Origin: Chamaesiphon minutus PCC 6605 | GTDB taxonomy: Bacteria > Cyanobacteriota > Cyanobacteriia > Cyanobacteriales > Chamaesiphonaceae | Assembly: GCF_000317145.1 (NCBI RefSeq) | Contig: NC_019697.1 | Coordinates: 2,170,001-2,234,000 of the forward strand | DNA: 64,000 bases | Direction: 5' to 3' | Shown here: positions 1 through 62,614 of the stretch, piece by piece | Numbering within the stretch: the stretch's first letter is position 1 | Layout of the letters: every line of letters starts with the position of its first letter | Notes under the pieces: model-generated | Databases searched by the model: none | What the model was told of the DNA's origin: nothing | The model's input: the letters and a program-made list of their open reading frames with translations, nothing else | Made by a program: the position numbers and the translations under genes

Positions 1-3000
1 ATCCTTGTAGTAAGGGTTGGGCTTCGTGTTCTTTGAAGCCTTCGAGTTGAATGGATTCGCCGATATTGAAGGGGGTAATCTGGGTATTGGTAATTAAATC
101 GGCAGGGGTGGCGACACCGAAGATGGCGAAAGTTAAGCGTTGATAGTTGGGTTTGAGGCTGCGCTGGTTGTAGCAGGAACGAATCAGGGCGAAGAAATCA
201 TTGACGGGGAATTTTAAGCCTAAGACGCAATCGATTTCATCGATGAAAATGACGAGTTGGTTTGAGGGGGTGCCGACTTCTACTAATAGGACTAATTCGA
301 TAAACTCACTCAATCGCTGGACTGGCGAGAGATCGGCTCGATCTTGCCACCAAGTTTTGAGGTTGACTTTACCCCGTAGCTCGAAATGTCGGGATAGTTC
401 GGAGGCGATGCCCTTGTACCATTGTTCTGGGGTAATGGTTTCACTGCCAATGCGGGTCATATCGATCGAGGCACACCACATCCCTTCGTGTTGGAGGTGA
501 TTTATCATCCGTACCATCAGGCTGGATTTACCCATCTGGCGGGGATTGAGGACGTAGCAAAACTCGCCGCGTTTGAGTGCTTTGTAGAGGTGCCTGTCGG
601 CGGCACGGACGACATAGGTGGATGCGTCCATCGGTAGGCTACCACCGACTTGATAGTCAAAGGTGGCGGGTGGTGCGGCACTGCGGAGTAGCTCGTTTTC
701 AAACAGGAGTTCGGATTGGGTGGCTTTGAGGATACCGAGGGTGTGAGAGAGTTCTTGGGTGCGTTCGAGGACTTTGTGTTCTAGGGTGCGGCTGTATTCG
801 GTTAATTCATCTCTGGCTTGTTCGAGGGCAAGATTTTTGAGTGCTAGCTCTTGGGCAAACTGAATCCGCTCGGCTTCGGCTCGTTTGCGAAGGGATATAT
901 CGGTAAAGGCAACCATCGCATAGGCAACTCGACCATTGTCGTCAAAGACTGGCGTACCAGCAGATTCGATCGGAATAATTTTGTCAGCATGGCGAATTTC
1001 CATGTCGTCAACAGTACTCCGTTCCCCACTTAATGCTCGGAGCAGGGGCACATCTGGCGACGGGTATAATCGATCGGTTCCGGCTTGATAAAGTTGATAA
1101 GTCTCCGTCAGTCCATCGGCTGTGGCTTCGGCGACAATCCCTTTGCCCAAGAGCTGCTGGGCGATCTGATTGGCATAGAAAGGTTTGCCATCAGCATCAA
1201 GGATACCAATGCCCACGGGCACTGCTTCTAAGAATTTATTCAGTCTGCTTTCGTTCTCACGTAATGCGACGTAAAGTTGGGCATTTTGGATCGAAATTGC
1301 TGCTTGAGCAGATAGGAGTTTGAGGACTTCTAAGCGATCGGGTGTAAAGGCATTAGTAGTCGAATTGTTTTCCAGATATAAGATCCCGCGCAGTTTGCCG
1401 CGTTGCTCGTTGCCAGCCGCTCCGCCCACGAGCAATGGCGTACAGAGAATGGATTTTGGTTGAGTGGAGATGATATATGGATCGCGAGTAAATTGTCCCG
1501 CATTAGTCGCATCATTGAGGACGACACTTTCCTGAGTGCGCGCGACATAATTGACGATCGTAGTTGACAACATGGAGATCTGAGCCGCATCTACTGGCAC
1601 CTGTCGCCCGATGGTAAGATCATCCTCATCGGCGACGCCTTCGGCTTCGATAACCCAGCGCAGATCTGCATCTACGCCAATAGGCGAGAGCAGGAAACCT
1701 GTTTGCGCCCCAGCATTCTCGATGACAGTTTTCATCAGCTTTTCGAGCAACTTGTCGAGGGCGATTTCGCTCGAAATTGCTTGCGATGCTTTGATGACTG
1801 CGGCTAAATCGATCGATTCGCTAGTGCTGTTAGAAATTCTGGTGGCATTGGTTTGAACTTCAGGTGCGGTGGCACTCAGCCACTGGGGATATCGCTCGTC
1901 TAAATCGGCTACTTTACGTTTAGCACCCCAAATTTGATAGCCTTGACGAGCTTTTTTTAGATAAAGTTGTGCAAATTCTGATTTACCTCGTTCCACCCAA
2001 AACTTGCCTGCTAGCTCATTTGCCAGAGCTTCATTCTGGACAAATTCATGTTCTCTCGCAGCAGCAATGGCTCGATCGTATAAGTCCATTGCTTCTGGCC
2101 ATTTACCAGAGATTCGCGCCATTTCGGCTGCTACCAACAGATATTTATGCAGGAAATTTTCTGGGCAGTTATCCGCCCAGATTTTCATCTGCTGTTGATT
2201 TTGTTCTACTTTATGCCAATATTGCTGCTGTTGTGCTGCTGAATCCGTAAATAAAGCTATGAGAATTAATGAGTAGTAAAAATTATGTTCCGAAACCAAA
2301 TATTGACCGACAATCGACGAGCTGATTTGCTCTGCCGCTAAACTACAATCGAGTGCCAGACTATGTTCGTGATAAAGATACAAAGCCTGACTTTTGAAGA
2401 TATAATAATAACAAATAGATGCTAGATTTATCGTTTGGTTGTAAACCTCTGAATTTTGGAGTTCGATGATTCTCTCCGATTGAAAATCCAATTTGTCTTG
2501 ACTGATTCCCAGCAAGTTGGAGACAGTTATTCTAAATACAAAAATTAAGTCTAAGCTAAGTTGATTTTTAGTTTTTCTTAAAAATGGTAATGTATTGGCA
2601 ATTTTTTCATCAATTTTTTGAAGGTTTATACCTTGATGAAATTGACTCAAGATCGCATAAACTAAATTATATCCGGCATATAATAACTCTCCAGATATTA
2701 AGCCTGCGTTATATCCATCCCAGTAAAAAGTATCTAAACTTGCCAAAGGTTTTATCCAACAAGCCAGCCAATAATTATGAATGGAAATTTTGCATTTTTG
2801 AGCACGATCGTTAAATCGATCGCTTAGCTTCAGTGCGAGCAACCCAAATTGGTAGGCGGCTTGATAATCTCCGAGGATAGAAATCGTTGCGACCCCAAAA
2901 TCGGAATATCCTTTGACTGACTCAGCGATATTACCATATTGAAAAAATATATTTACCTGTTTAGACGCAACCCAATGATATAAACTATCATCGAGCAAGT

Positions 3001-5779
3001 ATGCCGCCGAATCCATCGCTCCTAATATTTTAACAGCAGCTATTTTATCAGGAATGTTCATGAGCGGTAGATCGATCGATGATGAAATATCTCGATCTCT
3101 TAAATACTGCTGAATTGACGAAAATTCCAGATCGATTGCTGCTTTTAAATTCGATCGAGGTACTTGAATGTCTAAGAGTTTTAATCCCTCACTTCCAGCA
3201 ACAATCGCTGATTGGAACTTAGCAGACATCGCATATAATATAACGAGTGATTTATATATATCTGCCTTTTCTAAGATAGATCTAGCCTTGGCTAAATTTG
3301 AAATCATCAACTCTTCCGCTCTATCTAAATTGCCAGTTAAATATTCGACTTCTGCCAACTTTTTGTACAATAAAAATGAAAGTGGATCGTCGATCTGCCA
3401 AAGTGTTGGCAGGCAATTAATACCAACTTGAAAATAGGATCTTGCTGACATATAAGCAGCAGAATCTCTTGCTCTTTGCCCTGCTTCCAGATTTAGTTTA
3501 ACCAATGATCTTCTTTCGCTCTCATCTACAATCAGATCTTGCGATTGATTCAGATGAACGACAATATCGAAAACTTTTTCTGCTCTTTTTTCAAGTGGTG
3601 TATCGATGAGTAATAGCCGACCAATTTGAAGATGAACGCCCTGTTTGTGTCGATCGTCAATTAAAGTATAAGCTGCTTGTTGAACTCGATCGTGTCGGAA
3701 TTTAAAATTGAGAATTAGCAGTCGCGCATCGATCGCTTCCAGCCCTACCGCAGCTAACTCGGAAGTCGGTAAAATCACACCTCGATCGAGCGCGGGTAAA
3801 AGTGTTGAAAAGGTTTCAGAGAGGGATTTTTCGCCGATAATTGCGAGCGTATTTAAATCGAAACTATTCCCCACGCAAGCCGCCAACCGCAAACTATGCT
3901 GGGTTGATTCTGGTAATTTCTTTAAGTTATCGATGGTTGAGTTGACGACATTATCGGCAATATCTCTTTGTTCGATCGTCTTAATATCCCACTGCCAACA
4001 ACCTTGCTGATAATCAAAAAGTAATAAGTTATCTCGATGCAAAGCTTTCAAAAATTCATTAACAAAAAAGGGATTGCCCAGAGTTTTAGCAATGACTAAT
4101 TCAGCTAACGGTTTAACTACATTCAGATCCCGAACTAAAGTATCGGCAATCAGATGGCCGATCTCCTCCAGATTCAAAGGTGCTAAAGTAATCTTGTTAA
4201 TGTTAGCACCTTCATTTATTAATGACTCAATGGCGATCGATAAGGGATGGATCGGACTGACTTCATTATCGCGATAAGCTCCGATCGGGAATAGATATTG
4301 AATGAGATCGTCACTAACGATCGACTCGATCCATTTTAGACTGGCTAAGTCTGCCCATTGGAGATCGTCGAGAAAGATAACTAACGGATGCTCTGCTTGA
4401 CAAAATACCCGAACGAAGTTTTTAAATACTAGATTAAAGCGATGCTGCTCCGTTAACTCTAATGGTTGTCCGACTGGTTGAGCACCGATAATCATCTCCA
4501 CATCGGGAATGACATCGATAATCATTTGTCCATTATTACCCACCGCAGCCAAGATTTTCGATCGCCACTGAGCTAGTCGTGCGGCACTTTCACTTAATAG
4601 TTGCCGCACTAATGACTTAAATGCTTGGGCAATCGCTGAGTAGGGAATATTGCGCTGCAATTGGTCGAATTTTCCCGCGATAAAGTAGCCGCGCTGTTGA
4701 GCGATTGGTTTATAAATTTCTTGTACCAAGGCTGATTTACCGATCCCGGAATAACCGGAAACCAGCATCATTTCGATCGTGGATTGCCGAACATGCTCTC
4801 CTGCTGGTACGCGCTCCTGTGCCGGAGACGCTACGCGAGCGAAAGCTGCTAATAAGGTGTCAATTTCTCGCTCCCTACCATAGAGTTTCTGCGGAATTTG
4901 GAAATTTCCCGACACATCTCGCTCGGCGAGGGGAAAGTTATAAATCTCACCAGTATGCTGTAATTGCCGCTGGCAGATCTCTAAATCTACTTTTAATCCC
5001 CAGGCACTTTGATATCGCTCCTCAGCCGTTTTTGCTAACAGTTTCATCACCAGATTGGAAACAGTTTGCGGAATTTCGGGAACTAATTGGTGAGGGGGTA
5101 TCGGTTGTCTGGCAAGATGACAATGCACTAGCTCTAGTGCGTCGGTTGTTTCAAACGGCACTCGTTGAGTCAAGAGTTGATAAAATGTCGCACCCAGAGA
5201 GTACAAGTCAGTGCGATAATCTAGGCTTCGATTCATTCTGCCAGTTTGTTCTGGCGACATATAGGCGAGGGTGCCTTCGAGTAAAGTGGGATGTTTAATC
5301 GCGGGATTTTCGCGCGTAAATACGGTTGAGATCCCAAAGTCAATTATTTTGAGCTGCCCAGTGGTTGGGTTGAAAACGATGTTACTGGGATTGAGATCTT
5401 TGTGAACGATCTTAGCGTCATGAATCTGGCTTAAAATCTCCGCTATTTTAATCGCTACATCGAGAAATGCTGATAGGGTAAAATTGCTGGAATTCATCAG
5501 GATATCTAAAGATTCACCCCCAAAATCTTCCAAACACATCACCAATGTATTTTGATATTTTTGCAAGCCATACGCCTTGACAACGCCCTCTATTTGCAAT
5601 GAGCGAACTATTTCATATTCTTGCTTGTATCGGGTTAGTTCTGCTGGCGTAGGATAGCCCGGTTTGAGCAGTTTGAGAATCGTAGATTGTCGATCGATTA
5701 GCGAGATCGATCGATATACAATTGAATTGGCACTTTGATAAATTTGCGATACGATTTGGCGATCGAGAATTGTCATCAT
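1..5779 (-). CDS. Ser/Thr kinase-AAA-GAF-PAS-AAA_35 multidomain signalling protein (3' end outside window)
   Basis: The frame stays open from an ATG-ATG at 5779 to the left edge (about 1925 codons), so the C-terminus is missing. In order: a protein kinase domain (about residues 1-265; HKDLNPSN catalytic loop near 125, DFG near 147); an AAA_16-type ATPase with P-loop GYSGIGKS near 345 and Walker B VIFLDD; a long helical TPR-like region to about 1300; a GAF domain (about 1320-1480); a PAS domain (about 1490-1620); a coiled coil; then the start of a second ATPase of the AAA_35 type, with motif NPRQMGKSS near 1746 and FIDEID. Such giant kinases are common in filamentous cyanobacteria and usually end in a histidine kinase or cyclase; here an AAA_35 domain takes that place. 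No Shine-Dalgarno precedes the start. Domain identity is strong; substrate and stimulus are unknown. Confidence 0.85.
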   Translation of the reverse strand, partial: MMTILDRQIVSQIYQSANSIVYRSISLIDRQSTILKLLKPGYPTPAELTRYKQEYEIVRSLQIEGVVKAYGLQKYQNTLVMCLEDFGGESLDILMNSSNFTLSAFLDVAIKIAEILSQIHDAKIVHKDLNPSNIVFNPTTGQLKIIDFGISTVFTRENPAIKHPTLLEGTLAYMSPEQTGRMNRSLDYRTDLYSLGATFYQLLTQRVPFETTDALELVHCHLARQPIPPHQLVPEIPQTVSNLVMKLLAKTAEERYQSAWGLKVDLEICQRQLQHTGEIYNFPLAERDVSGNFQIPQKLYGREREIDTLLAAFARVASPAQERVPAGEHVRQSTIEMMLVSGYSGIGKSALVQEIYKPIAQQRGYFIAGKFDQLQRNIPYSAIAQAFKSLVRQLLSESAARLAQWRSKILAAVGNNGQMIIDVIPDVEMIIGAQPVGQPLELTEQHRFNLVFKNFVRVFCQAEHPLVIFLDDLQWADLASLKWIESIVSDDLIQYLFPIGAYRDNEVSPIHPLSIAIESLINEGANINKITLAPLNLEEIGHLIADTLVRDLNVVKPLAELVIAKTLGNPFFVNEFLKALHRDNLLLFDYQQGCWQWDIKTIEQRDIADNVVNSTIDNLKKLPESTQHSLRLAACVGNSFDLNTLAIIGEKSLSETFSTLLPALDRGVILPTSELAAVGLEAIDARLLILNFKFRHDRVQQAAYTLIDDRHKQGVHLQIGRLLLIDTPLEKRAEKVFDIVVHLNQSQDLIVDESERRSLVKLNLEAGQRARDSAAYMSARSYFQVGINCLPTLWQIDDPLSFLLYKKLAEVEYLTGNLDRAEELMISNLAKARSILEKADIYKSLVILYAMSAKFQSAIVAGSEGLKLLDIQVPRSNLKAAIDLEFSSIQQYLRDRDISSSIDLPLMNIPDKIAAVKILGAMDSAAYLLDDSLYHWVASKQVNIFFQYGNIAESVKGYSDFGVATISILGDYQAAYQFGLLALKLSDRFNDRAQKCKISIHNYWLACWIKPLASLDTFYWDGYNAGLISGELLYAGYNLVYAILSQFHQGINLQKIDEKIANTLPFLRKTKNQLSLDLIFVFRITVSNLLGISQDKLDFQSERIIELQNSEVYNQTINLASICYYYIFKSQALYLYHEHSLALDCSLAAEQISSSIVGQYLVSEHNFYYSLILIALFTDSAAQQQQYWHKVEQNQQQMKIWADNCPENFLHKYLLVAAEMARISGKWPEAMDLYDRAIAAAREHEFVQNEALANELAGKFWVERGKSEFAQLYLKKARQGYQIWGAKRKVADLDERYPQWLSATAPEVQTNATRISNSTSESIDLAAVIKASQAISSEIALDKLLEKLMKTVIENAGAQTGFLLSPIGVDADLRWVIEAEGVADEDDLTIGRQVPVDAAQISMLSTTIVNYVARTQESVVLNDATNAGQFTRDPYIISTQPKSILCTPLLVGGAAGNEQRGKLRGILYLENNSTTNAFTPDRLEVLKLLSAQAAISIQNAQLYVALRENESRLNKFLEAVPVGIGILDADGKPFYANQIAQQLLGKGIVAEATADGLTETYQLYQAGTDRLYPSPDVPLLRALSGERSTVDDMEIRHADKIIPIESAGTPVFDDNGRVAYAMVAFTDISLRKRAEAERIQFAQELALKNLALEQARDELTEYSRTLEHKVLERTQELSHTLGILKATQSELLFENELLRSAAPPATFDYQVGGSLPMDASTYVVRAADRHLYKALKRGEFCYVLNPRQMGKSSLMVRMINHLQHEGMWCASIDMTRIGSETITPEQWYKGIASELSRHFELRGKVNLKTWWQDRADLSPVQRLSEFIELVLLVEVGTPSNQLVIFIDEIDCVLGLKFPVNDFFALIRSCYNQRSLKPNYQRLTFAIFGVATPADLITNTQITPFNIGESIQLEGFKEHEAQPLLQG

Positions 5780-15695: not shown

Positions 15696-15745
15696 CAAAG
15701 TCCGCCTGCGCGGACTCTTCTCTCAGTCCGCGCAGGCGGACTTTG
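15696..15745. repeat. GTCCGC-type hairpin repeat (copy 1)
   Basis: CAAAGTCCGCCTGCGCGGACT pairs perfectly with its reverse complement 7 bases later, giving a 21-bp stem. Flanking sequence (ATTGAAATCGGGGCTA left; GCATCACAAGCCGAGAC right) belongs to the same repeat family as at 19.8, 31.2 and 62.5 kb. The stem could also end transcription of the Coq4-like gene. Confidence 0.8.
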
Positions 15746-19779: not shown

Positions 19780-20035
19780 GTTCCAGTTCCGCCAACGATT
19801 GAAATCGTGGCTAGTGATGCAAAGTCCGCCTACGCGGACTAAGAAATCCAGGTATTGCTGAATTTAATGTATGAAACCTCTGGTAGGGGCAATTCATGAA
19901 TTGCCCCTACCAGAGGTTCTAGAGATAGAAACGATCGCTTATCGTACTTGTATTCAGCAACGCCGAAATCCAGTCCGCGTAGGCGGACTTCGCATCATGA
20001 GCAGAGACTTTAGTCTCTAGGCTCTAGGCTCTAGG
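19780..20035. repeat. nested palindromic elements inside a GTCCGC hairpin
   Basis: The two arms of a GTCCGC-type hairpin (GCAAAGTCCGCCTACGCGGACT at 19818; AGTCCGCGTAGGCGGACTTCGC at 19971, each quoted in part) are split by about 130 bp. Inside is an element with inverted ends TTGCTGAAT/ATTCAGCAA, and at its centre a perfect 44-bp palindrome (19875-19918) whose half is AACCTCTGGTAGGGGCAATTCA. The right end carries three tandem TCTAGGC units. This accounts for the whole 344-bp gap between the two kinase genes; no gene is seen in it. Confidence 0.75.
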
Positions 20036-22538: not shown

Positions 22539-25500
22539 ATGGGATTCTTTGATACTGTCGCTAGATTGACAATAACGGAAGTTTTCAAGGCAGGTTTGGC
22601 TGAGGTGAATAGTCACCTGAATCCAGATGAGATGATAGTGCTGTTACAGCAAGCAGAAATAGCGGCAGATGAAGCACAACCAGAACTTGGTGGATTATTT
22701 CGGCGGATCGATCGTGATGGCGCGAATGGATATCAAAAGTTCCTAAAGTTTTTTCAGTCACGTTTGGTACAGAATGAGTTGCAGAGACCTTTTCAGAATG
22801 GTGGTAAGCCTAATGTAAAGATTCTAGTGGAGGTGTTTAAACGATCTGCATTCGAGCATCCCGAATCAGAGAATTACCTATCCGATTTGATGCCGTTGTG
22901 GATGGATGCGTTTGTTGAAAGCTATTTCGATCGCGTAGGAATTTGCTTTCAGGTGGCAAAGGAGCAATATCTGAAGCAATTGGCGCGGCGGGTAAATAAA
23001 GTAAAGTTTGTTGGAATGGCTGTGCCAGCAGGAGAGGTTGAAACGCAGAAGGGTTTAGTACAGATATTTGTCATGCCAGATGTGCGGGAAAAACGCAGTG
23101 GAGTAATAAATGACATAGATATTGATTATGGCTGTATTCTTGACTCTGCGCCCAAAGATTTGTCGAGCCAGGAATATCAAGAATTAAAGGGTTTTGTTCA
23201 ACAGAAAAATTTACTCCAAGAACAAAAACAATGGGCACTGCGAGATCGATCTGCTGCGCGAGTTTCAGCTCCAAAAGTTCTGAATTTGGCTCAGAAAAAA
23301 GTAGTGTTACTAGGCGCACCAGGTTCTGGAAAAACCATGTTGTCTAGCTATTTTGCCTTAATGCTGTGTCAAAGTACTCCAACTGAGATTAGCTTGGATG
23401 TAAAGGTCGAGTTGCCTATTTTTATAAGAATTCGAGATTGGATTTCAAAACCTGAACAAGGATTGTTGAGTTATTTACGTTGGGATGCGGAAGCGAATTT
23501 ATCCATCAACAATTTACCTTTGGGATTTTTTGAGCATTGGCTGGAGAGAGGGCAAGCATTAATTTTACTTGATGGGCTAGATGAGGTTGTAAATGAAGCC
23601 CAACAAAGTAAAGTGGTGGAAAAGATTGAGACATTTTTGCATCAATACCAGAACAATCCGGCGGTAATTACGTCACGTCCAGCAGGGTATCGAGAAGCTT
23701 TCAATCTCGATGAATTTCCCCACTATACGCTGGAATCCTTCGATGACAAGCAAGTGGCGACATTTATCGACCATTGGTATGACAGTCGGCTCAAGGATGA
23801 TAAGGCGCAAGCAGAACGGCGGAAGGTTGATTTGCAGAAGGCATTTGCCAGAAATGATCGGATTCGACTGCTGGCTAGAAATCCATTGTTATTGACACTT
23901 ATTACATTAATTCATCGTGATGGAGGTGAGTTACCTAAACAGCGTTACAAGCTCTACGAGAGAGCGGTGGAAATGTTGCTGATCCAGTGGGATTGTGCGA
24001 GAGATATCAAGCTCGATCCTAAGAATATTCTTTTCAAGTCAGAAGATTTATTGTATGTCTTAAAAAAAATAGCTTACTGGATTCATACTCAGGGCAGTAT
24101 AGGGGAAACAGAAGGTGGCACACTCATTGACAAGGATGAGTTAATGCGGCAGTTACGAACAGAAATTAAGATGCTAAAAAAATGCGAATCGCATGAAGCA
24201 ACGGCAGAAGCAAAAAGGTTTATCGATTTTATAAGAGAACGGACAGGTTTATTAAATGAACAAGGCATAGATTGCTATGCTTTCGTACATAAGACGTTTC
24301 AGGAATATCTAACAGCAGAGGAGATCTATGAGGCAGATGAATCGGGAGAGGATACAGAGATTATCGGGAGACATTTTCGGGAGTATGTACACGATCAACA
24401 TTGGCGAGAAGTTTTGTTATTACTGGTGTCGAAGCTGAAAGGTAAGAAAGCACAAAATGCGATTCAGACTGTTTTGGATGCTAATAGCAAGTATGAACAG
24501 TGGTTACATCGAGATTTACTTTTTGCAGGTTGGTGTCTGACAGAAGATCCATCTAGATTGACAATGGTAGCGGCGGATTGGGTGGGGGAAATACTCGATC
24601 GATTGGTTGATTTAGAGGTTGAAAATTCCGATCGGATTGGTAGCAGAATTAGAAGCGAAGTAGAAAAGATTCTATATTGCTTTGGTGAAACAAATTCAGA
24701 AGTTGATGTGTGGGAGAAGTTGCAAGCGAAAGGAGATCGGATCGATCGTTTTCAACGCTAAAATTTCAGGCTGCTTTGGGAAAAGAAACAGAAGCGATCA
24801 ATATATTGGTCAATTTATTGGAAAATCAACATGGTGTTACAAGCCTTCTTGCTGTACAAATATTAGTAGAATTAGAATGTAAAAATGAGAAAGTGGTAAG
24901 TTGTTTATTAGGTTTATTAGAGAGTGAGCAACGTTTTATTTTCGTTCACGCTGCAAAAATATTGTATCAGTCAGGCAACTCTAAAGATAAGGTGGTTCAG
25001 CGTTTTCTCTTGATGTTGGACAATGAAGATTCCGTTACCCGTATTGGAGCCGCACAGATCCTAGTTCAACTAGGAAATACTGGTGAGCAGGTTATAAGTA
25101 GTTTAGTCTCCTTACTGGGAGATGAAAACTTCCATGTGCGCTCCAATGCCGTATCAGAATTGGGTCAATTAGGGAGTACTGGTAAGCAGGTGATAAGCCG
25201 TTTAGTTGACTTACTGAATGATGAAAACTCCACTGTACGCTTTATTACAGCAGAAGCATTAGGTAGATTAGGAAATGCTGATCCGGAAGTGGTAAATCAT
25301 TTACTTCCCTTACTTGTTGATACAAATTCTTCCTTACGTTCTAGTGTTGCGGAAGCATTAGGTAGATTAGGAAACGCTAGTTCGGAAGTGGTAAATCGTT
25401 TACGTCCCTTGCTTATCGATCAAAGCTCATCTGTTCGCTCTAGTGCTGCGGAAGCGTTGATTAGATTAGGAACTGTTGATTCAGAAGTAGTAAATGTTTT

Positions 25501-25906: not shown

Positions 25907-28114
25907 ATGAAGACTAGCCAAGTGCAGCACACACTAATGGCATACTTACGCCACGAACTCTGTACGCCGATTAATGCCACGATCGGTTATAGTGCCATGC
26001 TGCTCGAAGAGCTAAAAACACAACCAGACTCGATCTTCGTCGCCGATCTGGACAAGATTCACACCTGTAGTCAACAACTATCGATCCTGGTAAATACCAT
26101 CCTCGATCCAGTGCAACTGGAAATGAGCCAGATCGATGGCGAACTGAGTCGGTTTGGTGCGGAGCTAAGGATGGAATTGCTCACGCCTTTGAGCACGATT
26201 ATCGGTTACTGCGAGATGCTGTTAGAGGAAGCTCCAGCAGAATTGATTCCCGATCTAGACAAAATTCATACGGCAGCGCACCAGTTATTGAGCTTAGTAA
26301 ATGATATCGTGCATCTTGCCCAGCAACAGTTACAGCAGTTGACGGTACCGGATACTAGTTCCCCCCTGTCGATCGAACACCCAGCTACGGCTAGCTTGGT
26401 GCGGAGTGCAACCACTACACTGAAGATGCTCGATCGATTGTCTGGCGTACCGCAGGCACAGGGAGGGATGATTTTAGTAGTTGATGACAACCCGACTAAT
26501 TGTGACTTACTCTCGCGCCAATTAAAACGGCAAGGCTACACAGTCACAACGGCGACTAATGCCCGTCAAGCCTTACGCCTGCTCAAAGCCGTCCCTTACG
26601 ACCTAATTTTACTAGATGTCATCATGCCGGAGGTCGATGGGCTGGAATTACTCCAGCAGCTCAAACAGGACGATCGATTCCAGCACATTCCGGCGATCGC
26701 CATTTCGGCTCTAGAAACGATCGATGTTGCGGTTAAATGTATCGAACTTGGTGCCGAAGACTATTTACAAAAGCCCTACGATCCGATCTTGCTCCAAGCG
26801 AGGATTACCGCCTGTTTAGAGAAAAAGCGACTGCGCGATCGGGAAATCCTCTACCGCCAGCAAGTACAATGCCTGAGTGCCGCAGCAGCCGCGATCGAGA
26901 CTAAAACCTTCAACCCCAATAGTTTGGACGATCTGAGCCAGCAGTCGCACCAATTAGGGCAACTAGCTCGCGCTTTCCAACAGATGGCGCGATCGGTTAA
27001 TTCCCGCGAACAGGAGCTAGCACAACAGATTCAGCTCTTACAGAATGGCATCGATCTGGGACAGCCACAGCGAGTGGTGGCTGAGATTACCGCCGCAGAA
27101 CATTTTCAACAGCTCCAGCAGCGCACGAAGCGCAGTAGCGATATCGAGAATCTCTATCGCTCTTCCCTGTACCCTGCGCTCCATCCCGCTCCCCCCGTTG
27201 GCGATCGCGCTGCATCCTCACCAGTGACGCGATCGCCGTTGGCAGTTGTCAGGCGGGTAGAGCAACCAGCGATCGATGCCCAGCAGGTTAGCACCGCCAA
27301 AGTTATCGCTGTCCACTCCTTTCGCGGTGGTACGGGTAAGTCAAATCTCATTAGTAACCTGGCGGTGAGTCTCGCCAAGCAGGGTAAACGGGTGGGCATT
27401 ATCGATACAGACTTACAATCTCCGGGCATTCATGTGCTGTTTGGGCTGGATGATGAGACGATCGACCTCACCCTCAATGACTATCTCTGGCATCGTTGCG
27501 CTTTGTATGAAGCCGCCTACGATCTGAGCCATCTGTTGCCTCAACCTGCTGGTAATCCTGCTGGGGCGATTTATCTGATTCCCGCCAGTGCCAACGCCAA
27601 CGACATTAACCAGATCGTGCGTGAAGGCTATCCCCCAGATCTGCTTCTCGATGGTTGCGCTCAGACGATCCGCGATCTCCAACTAAATGTTCTGTTACTT
27701 GATACCCATCCCGGCATCGATCGCGAAACCCTTCAGGCAATCGCGATTTGTAGTCAGCTAATTGTGATGCTGCGTCCAGACTATCAGGACTATCAAGGCA
27801 CTGCCGCGATCGTCGAGCTGGCGAGGATGTTGTCGGCTGCGGAGCTGTTACTAGTTGTCAATCGGGTACCACCCAATTTTGAGATCGAAACCTATCAACA
27901 GCAGGTACAAACCGCCTACGGTGTCCCCGTCGCCGCAGTTTTGCCCTTTGCCGAGGAAATGCTGAATCTCGCCAGTAGTCAAGTCTTTGCAGTGCGCTAT
28001 CCCACTCATCCGCTGACTCAGGCAATCGATCGACTGGGCGATCTGATGATGCTTCAGGGGAGAGGCTCCGCCAACGAATACAAGACAGCGATACAGATCG
28101 GACGATCGCCTTAA
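25907..28114 (+). CDS. tandem HisKA-REC-ParA/MinD fusion protein
   Basis: The 735-aa protein has the same N-terminal block as the kinase at 20100: HisKA-like hairpin 1 with His (LRHELCTPINATIGY, H16), hairpin 2 with Met (LRMELLTPLSTIIGY), and an intact receiver (VVDDNPTN, LLDVIMPEVDG). After a coiled-coil linker comes a ParA/MinD/CpaE-type ATPase (about 465-700) with deviant Walker A SFRGGTGKSNL, VGIIDTDLQSPGIH and LLLDTHPG. It lacks any HATPase, so it cannot autophosphorylate. CpaE-like REC-ATPases place pili or polarity factors; this could link a phosphorelay to positioning on membrane or nucleoid. A short GC-rich repeat is embedded in frame near the C-terminus (LQGRGSANEY). Direct-repeat copy E lies upstream. 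Confidence 0.85.
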   Translation: MKTSQVQHTLMAYLRHELCTPINATIGYSAMLLEELKTQPDSIFVADLDKIHTCSQQLSILVNTILDPVQLEMSQIDGELSRFGAELRMELLTPLSTIIGYCEMLLEEAPAELIPDLDKIHTAAHQLLSLVNDIVHLAQQQLQQLTVPDTSSPLSIEHPATASLVRSATTTLKMLDRLSGVPQAQGGMILVVDDNPTNCDLLSRQLKRQGYTVTTATNARQALRLLKAVPYDLILLDVIMPEVDGLELLQQLKQDDRFQHIPAIAISALETIDVAVKCIELGAEDYLQKPYDPILLQARITACLEKKRLRDREILYRQQVQCLSAAAAAIETKTFNPNSLDDLSQQSHQLGQLARAFQQMARSVNSREQELAQQIQLLQNGIDLGQPQRVVAEITAAEHFQQLQQRTKRSSDIENLYRSSLYPALHPAPPVGDRAASSPVTRSPLAVVRRVEQPAIDAQQVSTAKVIAVHSFRGGTGKSNLISNLAVSLAKQGKRVGIIDTDLQSPGIHVLFGLDDETIDLTLNDYLWHRCALYEAAYDLSHLLPQPAGNPAGAIYLIPASANANDINQIVREGYPPDLLLDGCAQTIRDLQLNVLLLDTHPGIDRETLQAIAICSQLIVMLRPDYQDYQGTAAIVELARMLSAAELLLVVNRVPPNFEIETYQQQVQTAYGVPVAAVLPFAEEMLNLASSQVFAVRYPTHPLTQAIDRLGDLMMLQGRGSANEYKTAIQIGRSP

Positions 28115-28669: not shown

Positions 28670-30904
28670 ATGCCTACAATTCTGTTAGTTGAAGATAACG
28701 ATATCAACCGAGATATGCTATCCCGCCGTCTAGAGCGTAATGGATATCAGGTAATTGTTGCTGTCAATGGCACCGAAGCTGTCGCCAAAACTCTGTCAGA
28801 TCGACCGGATATCGTGTTGATGGATCTGCACCTCCCCATTCTCGATGGTTGGGCAGCTACCCGACAGATTAAAGCCAATCTTCAAACGCGAGTCATTCCC
28901 ATTATTGCGTTGACGGCGGATGGGAATGCTGGCGAACGCGAAAAAGCACTAGCTGCGGGTTGCGATGAGTATGATACCAAACCAGTGGATCTGCCTAGAT
29001 TGCTCCAAAAAATTACCAAGCTGTTAGAGCCAGTCATCGTAACAGCCCCAGCACCCCCGAACTCGCCGCCAGATCCCCGCTTACAGCAGATCTTACTAAA
29101 TCGGTTGCGGCACCAACTCGATCCGCCGATCGATCGGATTATTGGCTATAGCGATTTGCTATTGGATCTTCTGGGCGATGGACAGCAGCCAGATCTATGC
29201 AGCGATATTCAGAAGATTCACGCCTCTGGGCTGCGAATTTTGCAACTGGTACAGGCAATGCTCAACCCAGTACTATTGGAGCTACAACAGCAGGAAATCA
29301 ACATTTTCACTCCCACCTTACGATTGGAAATTCTCACGCCGCTGAGTACGATTATTGGCTACTGTGAGATGTTATTGGAGGAAGCCTCTACCGACCTAAT
29401 CCCAGACCTGGAGCAGATCTACACTTCGGCACAGGATTTGCTCAGTGTGGCGAATAGTCTAGATAGCCCGTTGGCGGAGCCTCTCCCCTGGAGAATCGAT
29501 CTTCAAACAATCTCGCTACAATCTATCGATCTTGACAATTTGAGTCTAGCAAAGGATTGGACGCGATCGTTTAGCGTCGGCTCTGCCGAATCGCCAATTG
29601 CCACAGATCGTCGAATTTTAATCGCAGACGACAACGAATCTACCTCCCAGTTGTTGTCGAGACAGGTAGAGCGGCAGGGATCGCAGGTGACGATCTCGAC
29701 GATCGATCGAGTCTTTGATACCCTCGCAGCCATCCCCTGCGATCTAATTTTGCTGGAGATCGGTCGAACGGGTAGTGGATTGCAACTGTTGGCGCAGCTC
29801 AAACAGGGCGAGTGGCGACACCTTCCCGTCCTAATCTTGGCAGCACCCGATCGCATGGATCTGGTGCTGCGAGGGATTGAGATCGGCGCAGCAGACTATC
29901 TGACTAAGCCGTTTCAGTCGGTGTTACTTCAGACTAAGATCGCGGCTTGTCTGGAGCTACAGCGGCGGCAGGGACAGGATGAGAGCTTCGATAGTCTGTT
30001 TGAAAATGCGCCAGTCGGCGTTTATCAAGCGACGGTTACAGGGTGCTATCGGCGGGTGAATCCGGCTTTAGTCGAACTGCTGGGATACCCCGATGCAGAG
30101 ACACTGATGGCGATGGTGACAGATATTGCCGACCGCATTTATGTCGATCGCAATCGCTATGCGGATTTCAAAACGATGTTAGCAGAACACGATCGGGTGA
30201 CTGGATTTGAGTATCAAGCATATCGCTATGATGGCGACCCCATCTGGATTGCGGAGCACGCTCGCGCTGTCCGCGATCGGGAGGGGAAGTTAGTGGCTTA
30301 TGAAGGCATTGTCGAGGAAATCTCCCAACGCAAGTTAGCTGAAGCCGCGCTCCAGCCACAATTAGCGGCGTTGCAACTCGAACTCGCCAATATTAAGCTC
30401 ACCCAACAGGTGGCGGAGATCGTCCAAACTGATTATTTTCAGCAGTTACAGCCCAATGGTGAAGCCTCGATCGCTGGCGGAGCCACGCCGATGGAGGATC
30501 GAGATTCTAGCTTGCAATCGTCTCTACCGCTCAAGGTGCTGTTGGTTGAAGATAATGAATTGAATTCTGATATGCTCTCGCGGCGGCTGCAACGTGCTGG
30601 CTATGCTGTGGTGGTTGCCAGCGATGGTGCTGAGGGTGTGGCGAAGGCGATCTCGGAACTACCAGATCTGATTCTGATGGATATCAGTTTGCCGATTCTA
30701 GATGGGTGGGAGGCAACTCAACAGATCAAGGCGAACGCCCAGACTGCGCGGATTCCGATTATTGCTTTGACGGCACATGCGATGGCTGGCGATCGAGAGA
30801 AGGCGTTGGCGGCGGGTTGTAATGATTATGATACTAAGCCAGTGGAGTTACCTCGGTTGTTGGGCAAAATTGAAGGTTGTTTGAAGCGATCGATCTCTAA
30901 TTAA
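28670..30904 (+). CDS. REC-HisKA-HisKA-REC-PAS-REC regulator
   Basis: The 744-aa protein has an intact receiver (VEDNDINRDML, D52 in LMDLHLPILDG), two HisKA-like hairpins (His148 in RLRHQLDPPIDRIIGY; Leu in place of His in LRLEILTPLSTIIGY), a second receiver whose acceptor is Glu (LILLEIGRTGSG), a PAS domain (about 445-565) and a third intact receiver (LMDISLPILDG). The first and third receivers are close copies of each other (shared PILDGW, AGxREKALAAGC and YDTKPV), an internal duplication. There is no HATPase. It probably relays phosphate between partners rather than making it. The gene lies between inverted copies of the 240-bp repeat. Confidence 0.82.
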   Translation: MPTILLVEDNDINRDMLSRRLERNGYQVIVAVNGTEAVAKTLSDRPDIVLMDLHLPILDGWAATRQIKANLQTRVIPIIALTADGNAGEREKALAAGCDEYDTKPVDLPRLLQKITKLLEPVIVTAPAPPNSPPDPRLQQILLNRLRHQLDPPIDRIIGYSDLLLDLLGDGQQPDLCSDIQKIHASGLRILQLVQAMLNPVLLELQQQEINIFTPTLRLEILTPLSTIIGYCEMLLEEASTDLIPDLEQIYTSAQDLLSVANSLDSPLAEPLPWRIDLQTISLQSIDLDNLSLAKDWTRSFSVGSAESPIATDRRILIADDNESTSQLLSRQVERQGSQVTISTIDRVFDTLAAIPCDLILLEIGRTGSGLQLLAQLKQGEWRHLPVLILAAPDRMDLVLRGIEIGAADYLTKPFQSVLLQTKIAACLELQRRQGQDESFDSLFENAPVGVYQATVTGCYRRVNPALVELLGYPDAETLMAMVTDIADRIYVDRNRYADFKTMLAEHDRVTGFEYQAYRYDGDPIWIAEHARAVRDREGKLVAYEGIVEEISQRKLAEAALQPQLAALQLELANIKLTQQVAEIVQTDYFQQLQPNGEASIAGGATPMEDRDSSLQSSLPLKVLLVEDNELNSDMLSRRLQRAGYAVVVASDGAEGVAKAISELPDLILMDISLPILDGWEATQQIKANAQTARIPIIALTAHAMAGDREKALAAGCNDYDTKPVELPRLLGKIEGCLKRSISN

Positions 30905-31212: not shown

Positions 31213-31264
31213 CAAAGTCCGCCTACGCGGACTAATTAATGTCAGTCCGCGTAGGCGGACTTTG
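31213..31264. repeat. GTCCGC-type hairpin repeat
   Basis: CAAAGTCCGCCTACGCGGACT pairs with AGTCCGCGTAGGCGGACTTTG across a 10-base loop. The flanks GATTGAAATCGGTGCTAGTA and GCATCATGAGCCACGATTTC are the family flanks also seen at 15.7, 19.8 and 62.5 kb. It lies 64 bp before the amidotransferase/SIS gene. Confidence 0.8.
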
Positions 31265-31327: not shown

Positions 31328-34300
31328 ATGACTATTTGGTTGGTAATTTATCAAAACTTAATTCCAGAATTCATCACCACCGTGATGATGATTTGCGGCG
31401 GCATCGGATCGAATCCTGCTTTGATTTGCTCCTACTCGATCGTTTGCACATTCCTACTCAGAGTTATTTGGCATATTTCAATCTTAATTCATGGCTTGGG
31501 TCATGTCTTGTCGATCGTTATTATCGACCGAGATCCATCTTTCATCAACACTACTAACATCCTCGAACATCGAACTCTATCAGCTATATTTAGATCCTTA
31601 ATTCCCTTTGCACCGATATTTGTACCATCGATCGAGAACTCAGATTACCCTTGGGTTGATGTTGGTCGATCGACTTCTACTTCGATTCGATTCAAGGCAT
31701 TGGGTGGCATCTTATTTAATGGAATTGCGGTGGGATTGGTACCGTTAGCAAATTCTTTAATTATGAGTATCGATCGCCATCCAGATGAATTTATCGTTGG
31801 GTTTGTAATTAACACTTTTGTAGGTGCCAATCTTTTAGTTATTTTTAGTTCGCTGTCGGATCTGGTGGCGGTGGTGACGGGTGAGGCGACTTGTTTTAAC
31901 TGCGGCAATTTTGGGTTTGTTGGCAAACGATTGGTGAGTGACGATCGATCGTTGCTACCAGCAAGAGTTATCGATATTTTCAAAACAATGGGCTGCGAAA
32001 CTGAAATTCGGGGCGAACAAGCTGGTGGCGGGGTGGTGTTTGCCCAGGATCGAGCCGATCGAGTGGTATTTGTCGGGACAAAGGTAGTCAATCGCAAGCG
32101 ACAAAATTTAACCCAATCTCTAGAAGCGGCGTTTGCTCCGGTGCGAAATCAAGCGATGCGGGCTGGTGCCCAGGCTGTGGATGCGGCGATCGTTGGGGTT
32201 TGGCACTATCGTTATGCTACGAGTAGTCTCCCGGCAATTGTCGAGACTCATTGGCATGAGTGGATGCCCGCTAGAACTGCTGCTGTGTGGAGATTCGATC
32301 GGGGAAAATGGGTGGGCGATCGCCAAACGGTAAACCACCGGATTACCCATAATGGGGATTTTGATGCTTGGGTGCTGTTTGGCGATCCGATCGAGAATGC
32401 CGATCTGGGTTTATGGCTCGAACGGGTGTTACATACGCCGAATTCGACGCTGGGCGACTCGCCGAAGATTGCGGGGATGATGGATTTATTAATTACCCAG
32501 GGGATGTGGGGTGCTTCGTTGCGACTGGCTTACCAACTGACGGTGGCTAAGTCGATCGAGGAGGCATTTGGGGGAAAAAGTCCGGCTAAAGCGGCACCGA
32601 ATAACGCCCCATCGGAGTTGGAGATCGGCGATTGGGCGGCGATCGCTGAAGGGATCTTTGTCAGACATCAGGAGGCGATTTTGCTCCCGTCCGCTAAATC
32701 GATGTTGGAGTTATCTCCGCCACAAGTTCATCAGCTCGAACGAGATCTGCTCGCAGCTTTGAGTCAGCATCACTCGATCGGTACATGGAATGACTCGGAT
32801 CGATCGGCTTTTGTCAAGACTGCCGTCGATGTTTTTTTCCATCACAATCCCTATCAGGCGACGAAATTATTTATGTCCAGAGCCAAGGGTAGTTTTGGGC
32901 TGGTAACTGCTTCGACATTGAATCCCGATAGTCTGGTATTGAGTGCTTGGGGACAACCGATCGCGACTGGATTCAACGTTCGCGATGATTATATGGTTTA
33001 TGCTTCAGAACCAGCCGCTGTCGATGCTGTTTTATCCGATATTCCCCGTTCCTATCGCTTGGATTTGGAGCAGAAAGGGGGTGAAATTGCCTGGGTGGGG
33101 GTCGATCGAATTACGATTTATTCGATGCCAGCAGATCGCGAATTACTGGGTGTGGAATTAGCACAACGGTGGATTCCATTACAGGGAAATGCCTATATTC
33201 TGCCGCCCACCACAAATGCTGAAGATCCGGTCGAGCATGACATTCAGGAAATTCCCCAGGTGCTGCAATCGATCGCCACATCCTGGGGCGATCCAGCTTC
33301 ATTCAATCGTCAAAGCGCAGACTATTTAGCCGAACTATTGATTGCCAAAGCTAAGAGCTGGGATCGGCGACAACGGGCCACGATCGATATTAAACTCGAC
33401 CGAGTGGCAACAGATCGATCTGTAGATCTACTTATTACGGGTGTTGAGAGCAGCCTCTGGTTGGGCGAGCGATTTGCCCAAGATTTAATTACCATCTGCC
33501 CCGCGCTAAAAGTTGCCACAATTTCAGCCAATCAGGTGTTACGGAAATTGCCATCTGACTCCAACCGACTGCATTTAGGTCAAAACTCGATCGTCCTAGC
33601 CATCAGTCAATCTGGACAAACATTTCCCACCCTGCAAGCTACCCACGCCTTCGAGGAACTTCGCCGCCAAGGATCGATCGGCGAGATATTTGTGATGACT
33701 GGCGAAATCTGTAGCCTGATGGGTACCGCGATCGAGCAGTATTATTACCCCGCATCTAGTTTTACTCGCCGGATTTTTATCAATGGCAGCGGTCGCCGCA
33801 CGGCTGAACCCACCACCGTCGCCGTAGCTGCCGCTCAAGCCACGTTAACGGAATTATTGCTATACCTCGCCAAACGGCTCCGACAAAGCTTCCCTGGCCA
33901 AAATGGGGCGTTTGAGATGACCTTAACCGCCGCAAATTTAGAGACTCTCGATCGAATCAAAGCTGAATTTGTCGATCTGAGCGTAGTACCGATCGTCGGC
34001 ACGACAGCCAGCGGTGAAACCAGCAATTCATCAGTCCATCGTCAGCTCCTGCGATCTGGTCGAAACTGGGCATTGCATGTCACCGAAACTCCCCTCGTCT
34101 GGGGCATTCATGCCCTCTACATCGCGATTTCCGCTGGATTTAAAGTACCATTGGTGCAAACGATCGCAAACTCAATGTTTGCGCTGGCGCATGTCCCCAT
34201 CCCCGGATTATTGCTGCCGGCGATCGTCTTAGCCGATGTGCTGATTTACATCTTTGGCCCCTGGTTTTGGACATTGGGACTGCGGTATTTCCAGGGTAGA

Positions 34301-34906
34301 CCCCTCCTCGCCCGCATGGGCAAACGCACCCTGGTCATCGGTGATGTGCCGTGGGTGCATCAATTATTAAAAGTCTATGTCAGCAAACTATTCTCGCTCA
34401 GTTATGGGATCGCCTCCCTCGATGTACATGGTGCCAACCCCCAAGATCACATGCTCCACCACTTCGGACATCGGGTGGTGAGAGGATCTTTAATCTTCTT
34501 AGGCATACCTGATGGGCGACGCGACAAGCTGCACAAAGAGTATGAAAGTGCCGTAATTATGACGGGCAAACAAGCCAATGGGGTGCGAAATATCAATGCA
34601 GGAGCGGAAATTATTGCCCTGGGACACAATCCGGCGATTTTCGTTCCGAAAGGCTCCGCCAACGCCCAGCAAGGCTTTCAAGATACGATCGTCCTCCCAA
34701 GTGCCCCAATTGTCGCTAGCGACGGTAGCATCCTGGAGGAATTACGCGAATCGCGGTTTGGCTCGTTCGAGCGATTACTGGCCAGCTATGTATTGTTCTG
34801 GGCATTGTCGAAACAGGTTGCCTCCTTCCCCTTGCTCCGATATCAACATTGGAAGTCCCAGAGCCGAACTCGAATCATGACCACCGCCGCTCCGGTGGCG
34901 CGATGA
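31328..34906 (+). CDS. membrane protein with class II glutamine amidotransferase and SIS domains (GlmS-like)
   Basis: The 1192-aa protein opens with about 190 residues of membrane helices, including WHISILIHGLGHVL, an M50-peptidase-like helix in which HExxH reads HGLGH. A class II glutamine amidotransferase domain follows: FNCGNFGFVG aligns with the CGIVGYIG start of GlmS (Cys192), HYRYATSS with HTRWATHG, and HNGDFDAWVLFGD with HNGIIEN. A SIS domain (about 690-850) has LAISQSGQTFPTLQAT, as in the isomerase half of GlmS. More membrane helices follow (about 925-990: HVPIPGLLLPAIVLADVLIYI). In known enzymes the catalytic Cys must be the N-terminal residue, so cleavage before Cys192 would be needed. 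It may make or sense an amino sugar at the membrane. Its 3' end is duplicated at 43449. Confidence 0.8.
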   Translation: MTIWLVIYQNLIPEFITTVMMICGGIGSNPALICSYSIVCTFLLRVIWHISILIHGLGHVLSIVIIDRDPSFINTTNILEHRTLSAIFRSLIPFAPIFVPSIENSDYPWVDVGRSTSTSIRFKALGGILFNGIAVGLVPLANSLIMSIDRHPDEFIVGFVINTFVGANLLVIFSSLSDLVAVVTGEATCFNCGNFGFVGKRLVSDDRSLLPARVIDIFKTMGCETEIRGEQAGGGVVFAQDRADRVVFVGTKVVNRKRQNLTQSLEAAFAPVRNQAMRAGAQAVDAAIVGVWHYRYATSSLPAIVETHWHEWMPARTAAVWRFDRGKWVGDRQTVNHRITHNGDFDAWVLFGDPIENADLGLWLERVLHTPNSTLGDSPKIAGMMDLLITQGMWGASLRLAYQLTVAKSIEEAFGGKSPAKAAPNNAPSELEIGDWAAIAEGIFVRHQEAILLPSAKSMLELSPPQVHQLERDLLAALSQHHSIGTWNDSDRSAFVKTAVDVFFHHNPYQATKLFMSRAKGSFGLVTASTLNPDSLVLSAWGQPIATGFNVRDDYMVYASEPAAVDAVLSDIPRSYRLDLEQKGGEIAWVGVDRITIYSMPADRELLGVELAQRWIPLQGNAYILPPTTNAEDPVEHDIQEIPQVLQSIATSWGDPASFNRQSADYLAELLIAKAKSWDRRQRATIDIKLDRVATDRSVDLLITGVESSLWLGERFAQDLITICPALKVATISANQVLRKLPSDSNRLHLGQNSIVLAISQSGQTFPTLQATHAFEELRRQGSIGEIFVMTGEICSLMGTAIEQYYYPASSFTRRIFINGSGRRTAEPTTVAVAAAQATLTELLLYLAKRLRQSFPGQNGAFEMTLTAANLETLDRIKAEFVDLSVVPIVGTTASGETSNSSVHRQLLRSGRNWALHVTETPLVWGIHALYIAISAGFKVPLVQTIANSMFALAHVPIPGLLLPAIVLADVLIYIFGPWFWTLGLRYFQGRPLLARMGKRTLVIGDVPWVHQLLKVYVSKLFSLSYGIASLDVHGANPQDHMLHHFGHRVVRGSLIFLGIPDGRRDKLHKEYESAVIMTGKQANGVRNINAGAEIIALGHNPAIFVPKGSANAQQGFQDTIVLPSAPIVASDGSILEELRESRFGSFERLLASYVLFWALSKQVASFPLLRYQHWKSQSRTRIMTTAAPVAR

Positions 34907-43448: not shown

Positions 43449-43861
43449 TCTGTGGTATTTCCAGGGTAGACCCCTCCTCGCCCGTATGGGTAAACGCACC
43501 CTCGTCATCGGCGATGTGCCGTGGGTGCATCAATTGTTAAAAGTCTATGTCAGCAAACTATTCTCCCTCAGTTATGGCATCGCCTCCCTAGATGTACATG
43601 GTGCCAACCCCCAAGATCGTCCTCCCTAGTCCACCGACTGCTGCTGACAGCGACAGTAGCGTAGTGGCGGAATTACGCGAATCGCGGTTTGGCTCGTTCG
43701 AGCGGTTACTGGCTAGCTATGTATTGTTCTGGGCATTGTCGAAACATGTTGCCTCCTTCCCCTTGCTCCGATATCAACATTGGAAGTCCCAGAGCCGAAC
43801 CCGAATCATGACCACCGCCGCTCCGGTGGCGCGATGAACTAATTCGATCGATCGTTCCTAG
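43449..43861 (+). pseudogene. truncated copy of the 3' end of the amidotransferase/SIS gene
   Basis: This DNA repeats 34286-34931 almost exactly, including about 25 bases past the stop codon, but lacks 242 bp (34449-34690 in the parent). The missing piece is bounded by GATC in both places, so recombination between GATC motifs is likely. The deletion shifts the frame and the fragment has no start, so it cannot make the protein. It lies next to direct-repeat copy 2, showing that the two were probably placed here in one event. Confidence 0.85.
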
Positions 43862-62505: not shown

Positions 62506-62614
62506 ATGCAAAGTCCGCCTGTCTTGAAAAGGTGCTCTACTTGGGGAAACCCCAAGACCGCACTTTTCGCTACGCGGACTGGGAGATTAGTCCGCGTAGG
62601 CGGACTTTGCACCA
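62506..62614. repeat. GTCCGC hairpin interrupted by another palindromic repeat
   Basis: The left arm GCAAAGTCCGCCT stops at 62520; about 51 bases later it resumes as TACGCGGACT, and the right arm AGTCCGCGTAGGCGGACTTT follows. The insert (62521-62571) has its own inverted structure: AAAAGGTGC/GCACTTTT outside and CTTGGGGAAACCCCAAG inside. One repeat family has inserted into another. Confidence 0.75.

Follow-up and report, generated by a model that had tools for sequence, protein, structure and literature searches.

A gene at positions 31328..34906 (+ strand, as are all parts of the gene given below) in a 64,000-nucleotide stretch of the cyanobacterium Chamaesiphon minutus PCC 6605 (contig NC_019697.1, positions 2,170,001 to 2,234,000; hereafter the window) probably encodes a membrane-tethered, GlmS-like amidotransferase that is made as a zymogen and processed directly before its catalytic cysteine, Cys192. 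The open reading frame begins with ATG and specifies 1192 amino acids, in which a predicted membrane prefix resembling site-2 proteases of the M50 family is followed by a class II amidotransferase domain and two SIS domains with a hydrophobic hairpin inserted between them. The amidotransferase and SIS motifs that an earlier, sequence-only reading had quoted from this DNA are present, with HGLGH at residues 55-59, CGNFGFVG from Cys192, HYRYATS at 293, HNGDFD at 341 and ISQSGQT at 759. Of what that reading proposed, a new membrane amidotransferase or processed zymogen has become the best-supported option, given a full GlmS-like core, the superposition of Cys192 on Cys1 and eight relatives that begin with Met-Cys, from which we infer cleavage of the longer protein.

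The core is a GlmS/GFAT homologue with Cys192 in place of Cys1, because structure superposition and profile alignments both put it there. A full-length AlphaFold2 model built from an 18-row alignment (mean predicted local distance difference test score, pLDDT, 71.5; predicted template-modelling score, pTM, 0.58) had GFAT-1 and GlmS as its top Protein Data Bank (PDB) matches in Foldseek (E ~1e-14). When superposed with VIA-align, model residues 192..1178 fell onto residues 1..599 of the 608-residue E. coli GlmS chain 2j6h_A (Z 24.4, root-mean-square deviation, rmsd, 3.6, 552 residues aligned), with model residue 192 on GlmS residue 1. The glutaminase domain matched 1xff_A (Z 22.8, rmsd 2.4, 236 aligned) and the isomerase half, 627..1166, matched 3tbf_D (Z 25.8), so that two SIS domains are present after the amidotransferase domain in the ranges covered by both 3tbf_D and 2j6h_A. 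The amidotransferase fold that had been proposed from the motifs was therefore found in the structure prediction.

Profile comparisons with hhalign, in which 38 family cores were set against 24 canonical cyanobacterial GlmS proteins and restricted to matching regions, gave the same placement. Core residues 192-620 aligned with GlmS 1-240 at E 6.4e-7 over all 240 GlmS columns, Cys on Cys (E 0.16 to 0.61 for six controls with reversed or shuffled columns), and SIS1 aligned with GlmS SIS1 at E 6.3e-5 (controls 0.24 to 0.83), the twelve controls of the two comparisons together spanning E 0.16 to 0.83. An unrestricted comparison with a smaller profile recovered three collinear pieces, the best at E 3.5e-5 and the one containing Cys192 at E 0.0057, together with a fourth that was not significant (reversed control, E 0.22), and a global hhalign comparison of the family with GlmS returned no alignment. 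A Pfam scan of the window protein found no match, and among 18 members 17 had none at E 0.1 while the last had a chance-level match to DUF2777 (E 0.089). NCBIfam gave GlmS matches of only 15 and 17 bits with a best stretch of ~30 residues, the 15 bits of the window protein lying below the TIGR01135 cut-off of 418.05 bits, and a PDB sequence search returned one irrelevant match (E 0.46). With Pfam blank at E 0.1 for 17/18 members, a complete GlmS-like protein can escape standard annotation.

Within the core, the class II, N-terminal nucleophile (Ntn) amidotransferase domain spans approximately residues 192-621 (31901..33190), as judged from hhalign, the 1xff_A superposition and conservation, and carries a large insert relative to GlmS between HNG and the GSFGLV segment. 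SIS1 covers approximately residues 699-858 (33422..33901; hhalign and the secondary structure of the model), with ISQSGQT at 759-765, and SIS2 approximately residues 1000-1178 (34325..34861; VIA-align ranges). The hairpin between them (helices 902-937 and 960-988; 34031..34291; model and hydropathy) is a predicted membrane anchor, and a hydrophobic segment in the same region is also found in all eight of the short relatives described below. Since a hydropathy threshold of 1.6 also flags segments in 19/24 ordinary GlmS proteins, the predicted membrane insertion of the hairpin is based not on that threshold but on a score of 2.28 at 958-976, on its being an insert and on the model. The order of the motifs is that of GlmS, as the sequence-only reading had it; its placing of them between membrane helices needs correction, in that the amidotransferase part lies between the prefix and the hairpin and nothing suggests that it threads the membrane.

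Cys192 was invariant in all 18 rows of an alignment chosen by homology (A2), which settles in its favour the question of whether homologues conserve it. These rows comprised 16 of the 20 loci from a genome-contig scan, the window protein and the divergent member L024; the remaining four loci, left out, were a duplicate, half of a gene, a copy with damage and a fragment lacking the Cys192 region. Over 38 core rows, Cys192 (for which these rows had been selected), G193, E226, R228 and G343 were unchanged, and R295, T298, H341, N342 and D377 were unchanged in 37, the exception each time being L024, in which T298 is replaced only by Ser. Cys192, R295, T298, N342, G343 and D377 are the predicted glutaminase residues, by the roles of their GlmS counterparts. 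All of the listed glutaminase residues are kept in 29/30 long rows and in 8/8 short rows. L024 (1360-5037), which shares 37-38% identity and is changed at R295, T298, H341, N342 and D377, retains both Cys192 and the prefix; it is likely a pseudoenzyme from a decayed lineage, and compared with it the remaining 29 long forms seem to be under constraint for catalysis.

The junction before Cys192 separates the family into two forms. Forty distinct cyanobacterial members cover it, 32 with a membrane prefix of ~190 residues and eight without (L004, L005, L009, L011, L076, L077, L095 and L105); L015, a damaged copy with a disrupted prefix start and a broken core frame, is counted among the 32, and loci that do not cover the junction were excluded (L019, L025, L026, L075, L078, L079, L080, L085, L101, L104, L106 and L107). 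Because these 40 were selected with a pattern that contains the Cys, they are no proof of its conservation, for which the 18 homology-chosen rows are used. The predicted maturation site of the window protein is Phe190-Asn191-Cys192 (31895..31903), and the corresponding residues read [FL]-[YNCH]-C in 32/32 long forms, with Tyr (23), Asn (5), Cys (3) or His (1) before the Cys and Phe or Leu before that. The eight short forms all read Met-Cys: their ATG stands directly before the Cys codon, and the open frame ahead of the Cys is only 2-6 codons long, ATG included.

An internal translation start at the Cys of the long forms was ruled out, as none of the 32 has a start codon directly before the Cys codon. 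GTG codons do occur in the window gene 9, 10 and 12 codons upstream of Cys192, and starts there would leave residues before the Cys. A separately encoded prefix in L107/L101 (genome G819) was also considered and rejected; we read these loci as one gene split between contigs because the prefix frame is still open where its sequence ends, at ...CFYCGNFG, and on the other contig the core frame starts in the middle of a domain.

A tree of 38 of the 40 members (cores longer than 850 amino acids; L016 and L103 dropped), a quick tree with Shimodaira-Hasegawa-like approximate likelihood ratio test (SH-aLRT) support only, contains five changes between long and short forms, at least four of them forced by well-supported branches. 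Without the long-branch rows L024 and L076 there are four changes, three of them forced. The rows next to the root, which was placed on L024, are all long. On the simplest reading, an ancestral prefix would have disappeared on four or five occasions, in every case with the Cys left as residue 1 once Met is removed, and repeated loss that leaves the Cys first is what is expected if the Cys must be N-terminal to work. Alternatively, the prefix may have been gained repeatedly or exchanged by recombination between copies; one genome (G743) carries a long and a short copy ~9 kb apart.

The prefix (residues 1-191; 31328..31900) is a helical, predicted membrane domain with H55xxxH59 (HGLGH), GG..N131 and D178, in which Gly56 stands for the catalytic Glu. 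In a prefix-only alignment of 32 sequences (A3), H59, N131 and D178 were invariant and H55 was present in 31/32, an order that we take to be that of the site-2 protease ligands, with equivalence to the M50 ligands assigned by pattern. HExxH itself is not kept: 30/32 prefixes have HGxGH, one has lost the motif (the damaged L015) and one has HELGH. The last is L017, with an identical sequence in L063, and as the sole prefix found with an intact HELGH it could still be a working metalloprotease. An AlphaFold2 model of the prefix alone (pLDDT 89.5, pTM 0.85) had the archaeal site-2 protease 3b4r_A as its best VIA-align neighbour (Z 6.5, rmsd 5.2, 141 aligned; next Z 4.3), while in Foldseek 3b4r ranked fifth at E 2.4 and no match reached E 0.001.

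With hhalign, the prefix profile matched a cyanobacterial M50 group at E 8.8e-6 over residues 52-143, or at 8.7e-5 after the removal of three dubious rows (L136 twice and L137), compared with 0.0036 for a reversed control and 0.14 to 0.48 for shuffled ones (six controls in total); a second M50 group matched only around HxxxH (E 0.0015). No significant Pfam M50 match was found among the 32 prefix members, one of which reached E 0.55. A degenerate M50 helix had been read from the HGLGH motif, and this reading is less firmly supported than that of the core, the profile alignments standing apart from their controls and the fold match being a weak one. The ratio of nonsynonymous to synonymous substitution rates (dN/dS) of the prefix was below 1 in 9/9 pairs (0.13 to 0.45, compared with 0.08 to 0.19 for the core), values from which we use only the direction, since the nine chosen pairs (Nei-Gojobori method) are not all independent (L062, L064, L086 and L007 recur) and several are near silent-site saturation. 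The prefix thus carries a signal of purifying selection, by which it seems to be kept, and we regard it with moderate confidence as a pseudoprotease derived from a site-2 protease that may still bind metal.

Taken together, these data suggest the following mechanism. In all likelihood the long protein is produced and put to use, and cleavage before Cys192 would be the economical explanation because the Cys would otherwise be blocked inside the chain of a long protein in use. The ~190-residue membrane prefix, resembling a catalytically dead site-2 protease, would act as a propeptide, and either Ntn-type self-processing or another protease would cut the peptide bond before Cys192. This cut would free the alpha-amino group of Cys192 for glutamine hydrolysis, and the SIS part would then transfer the ammonia to a phosphosugar at the membrane, where the core would be anchored by the helical hairpin inserted before SIS2. 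A fuller version is conceivable, although we hold it to be less likely than not: the protein would be a synthase of amino sugars that is produced as a membrane zymogen, in which the dead site-2 protease serves as both transmembrane propeptide and sensor, blocking Cys192 until a signal triggers an Ntn self-cut and activates sugar amination under the neighbouring phosphorelay, and several lineages would have deleted this switch to arrive at a Met-Cys start.

Several observations weigh against the processed-zymogen reading. The cleavage of the long forms is a prediction from sequence and models. The full-length model is of medium confidence, with pLDDT below 50 at 186-193 and 997-1056. The Z of the prefix match to 3b4r is below the range that VIA-align treats as clear, and the prefix is missing its catalytic Glu; it also evolves faster than the core, with a higher dN/dS in 7/9 pairs. 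The direction of the change between forms, as loss rather than gain or recombination, depends on rooting with L024, a long branch. Finally, the GlmS isomerase residues have only motif-level candidates in the family, the alignment there being at shuffle level in a region where the model has the low confidence given above for 997-1056.

The alternative with the most in its favour after the preferred reading, and a real if lesser possibility, is that a processed, active enzyme yields something other than glucosamine-6-phosphate, aminating or deaminating some other phosphosugar and skipping the isomerisation of GlmS. Residues named for the isomerase step of GlmS in one account are Glu488, His504 and Lys603 (PMC9272926). 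In SIS2, a motif-level match of GlmS KLKEISY on K1020-LFSLSY, at the shuffle level of alignment, would put S1023 (Ser in 34/38 rows, Ala in 4/38) at the place of Glu488, which would favour such a product. K1020 (unchanged in 38/38) and H1044 (37/38, with one gap) are motif-level candidates for GlmS K485 and H504, and K1176 (kept in 34/38) for Lys603. The retention of canonical GlmS in 35/36 family-bearing genomes checked also points towards a separate product, as do UDP-glycosyltransferase-like genes near four members. Such a gene, named from a Pfam run on the L014 copy, directly follows the family gene in L014; in L012 and L020, from one species, it follows at a distance of ~3 kb, and in L009 it lies ~1.6 kb upstream on the opposite strand. 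Against this, the SIS2 alignment to GlmS on which the Ser/Ala argument depends is not significant (E 0.33, no better than the 0.04 to 0.6 of reversed or shuffled columns), and the SIS2 part of the model has pLDDT below 50. Glucosamine-6-phosphate is a possible product but not the only candidate.

It is unlikely, in our estimate, that the long form is never cleaved and that it works with a silent glutaminase as a membrane sensor or scaffold, binding glutamine and/or phosphosugar and reporting to neighbouring histidine-kinase and response-regulator proteins; the sensor of amino-sugar pools that the sequence-only reading had also proposed is likewise kept as a rival. This would fit the position of the gene behind a hybrid response regulator in 7/9 rows of the window's clade, yet the listed glutaminase residues are kept in nearly all long rows (29/30) and all eight short ones, the decayed L024 shows what relaxed constraint looks like, and the clade's short forms, which need only Met removal, share the same regulator neighbourhood. 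Less probable still is a prefix that is not an inert propeptide but a working metalloprotease cutting on its own C-terminal side, or a partner that presents substrates to another site-2 protease. The invariance of H59 and D178 (32/32) and near-invariance of H55 (31/32), the HELGH of L017 and the site-2 protease as best VIA-align neighbour speak for it; Gly replaces the catalytic Glu in 30/32 rows, and in the model the predicted cut falls just beyond the final helix of the prefix, where an intramembrane protease would not be needed. That the motifs are a product of chance or assembly was suggested by the lack of any Pfam domain in the window protein and the single chance-level match among its relatives (1/18), and has a negligible probability: it is refuted by 32 distinct long forms with a frame open from prefix to core, by the structure match at Z 24 and by dN/dS below 1.

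The upstream neighbour of the gene in the window is a hybrid response regulator with three receiver domains, HisKA and PAS (28670..30904, + strand; Pfam and tblastn), separated from it by 423 bases. A hybrid response regulator lies upstream of the family gene in seven of the nine clade rows (window, L002, L003, L004, L005, L095 and the short copy of L138, L105); of the other two, L092, which is the long copy of L138, has no more than a HisKA-type relative close by, and L001 begins at a contig edge. We take this neighbourhood to be linked to the core and not to the prefix, because the clade's short forms share the regulator context. The neighbouring phosphorelay may regulate the protein. A second neighbour common to several clade members encodes HisKA, a receiver and a ParA/MinD-like ATPase in one protein (25907..28114, + strand; Pfam and tblastn). 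This fusion is unusual, and relatives of it lie beside the family gene in L002, L004, L005 and L107, the last being a long form at a contig end. Outside the clade, tblastn at E 1e-20 found no close relative of these genes beside the members tested, several of which have only ~1.5 kb of flank; neighbours there include Ser/Thr kinase genes, UDP-glycosyltransferase-like genes and others (Pfam on single examples).

Other features of these neighbourhoods were also observed. In the window, a NACHT NTPase with an NNH2 N-terminal domain (22539-24761) lies among histidine-kinase and response-regulator genes. L004 has a SulP-type sulfate permease with STAS and cyclic-nucleotide-binding domains (1546-3780) between phosphorelay genes upstream of its short-form gene, and L002 has a gene resembling it (1444-3669). 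In L019 (5662-7652), a sensor-kinase-like N-terminus similar to L138 331-2844 runs into the family SIS part and then meets a frame break; this frame looks like a recombination product.

The family is sporadic in cyanobacteria. The genome-contig scan, which relies on short exact peptides and reaches close relatives only, returned 20 relatives, all with cyanobacterial names. In sampled genomes, relatives were present in 3/386 of the phylum (protein query, E 1e-10), 23/388 of the order and 18/388 of the class (profile query, E 1e-6), the three samples sharing some genomes, and no relative was found in the plasmids, phages or viral contigs searched. The window genome carries a separate canonical GlmS, as do 35 of the 36 other family-bearing genomes searched (36 of 39, G466, G507 and G580 being left out as having fragments only). 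Because of this co-occurrence, the family protein is a paralogue beside the soluble GlmS rather than a replacement for it or a housekeeping enzyme.

The 6.76 Mb window genome contains one full copy of the gene, whose nearest relative is L001 (73% identity), and one deleted remnant ~8.5 kb downstream. The remnant, at 43450-43834, derives from the 3' end of the gene and corresponds to approximately residues 985-1041 (96% identity) and 1120-1192 (88%), with an internal deletion between them. A palindromic repeat, GTCCGCCTACGCGGAC, occurs seven times in the window when one mismatch is allowed, compared with none in 100 shuffles, at 31217-31260, 15700-15741, 19824-19988 and 62590-62605, and one inverted pair of it lies ~70 bases upstream of the start codon of the family gene.

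To our knowledge, it is the removal of Met or of a short peptide that exposes the catalytic Cys of class II amidotransferases. A whole membrane domain before the Cys that is precisely absent down to the Cys in several lineages is a clean natural test of Ntn activation, and the family lets one ask whether activation of an Ntn enzyme can be regulated from the membrane. No published description of such a protein was found in the literature searched, judged mainly by titles.

In fold, conservation and gene structure, the family is a variant of the GlmS/GFAT kind. It shares with GlmS and GFAT the order of domains, a class II amidotransferase and then two SIS domains, and the Cys that opens the matched region as its first residue; it differs from them in its membrane prefix, the large insert in the amidotransferase domain, the hydrophobic hairpin before SIS2 and a score of 15 bits against a cut-off of 418. 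The prefix shares with M50 site-2 proteases an HxxxH on a membrane helix, a GG..N helix and an Asp near the last helix, whereas it has Gly for the catalytic Glu in 30/32 sequences and is fused in front of an amidotransferase. PurF has the same Ntn fold and N-terminal Cys nucleophile, and E. coli PurF 1ecb_D matches the family model at Z 19.3; the partner domain in PurF is a phosphoribosyltransferase, in contrast with SIS here. The class II amidotransferase Cys described in PMC9140057 follows a few residues that come off by autocatalytic cleavage, whereas the prefix of this family is ~190 residues long and predicted to be embedded in the membrane.

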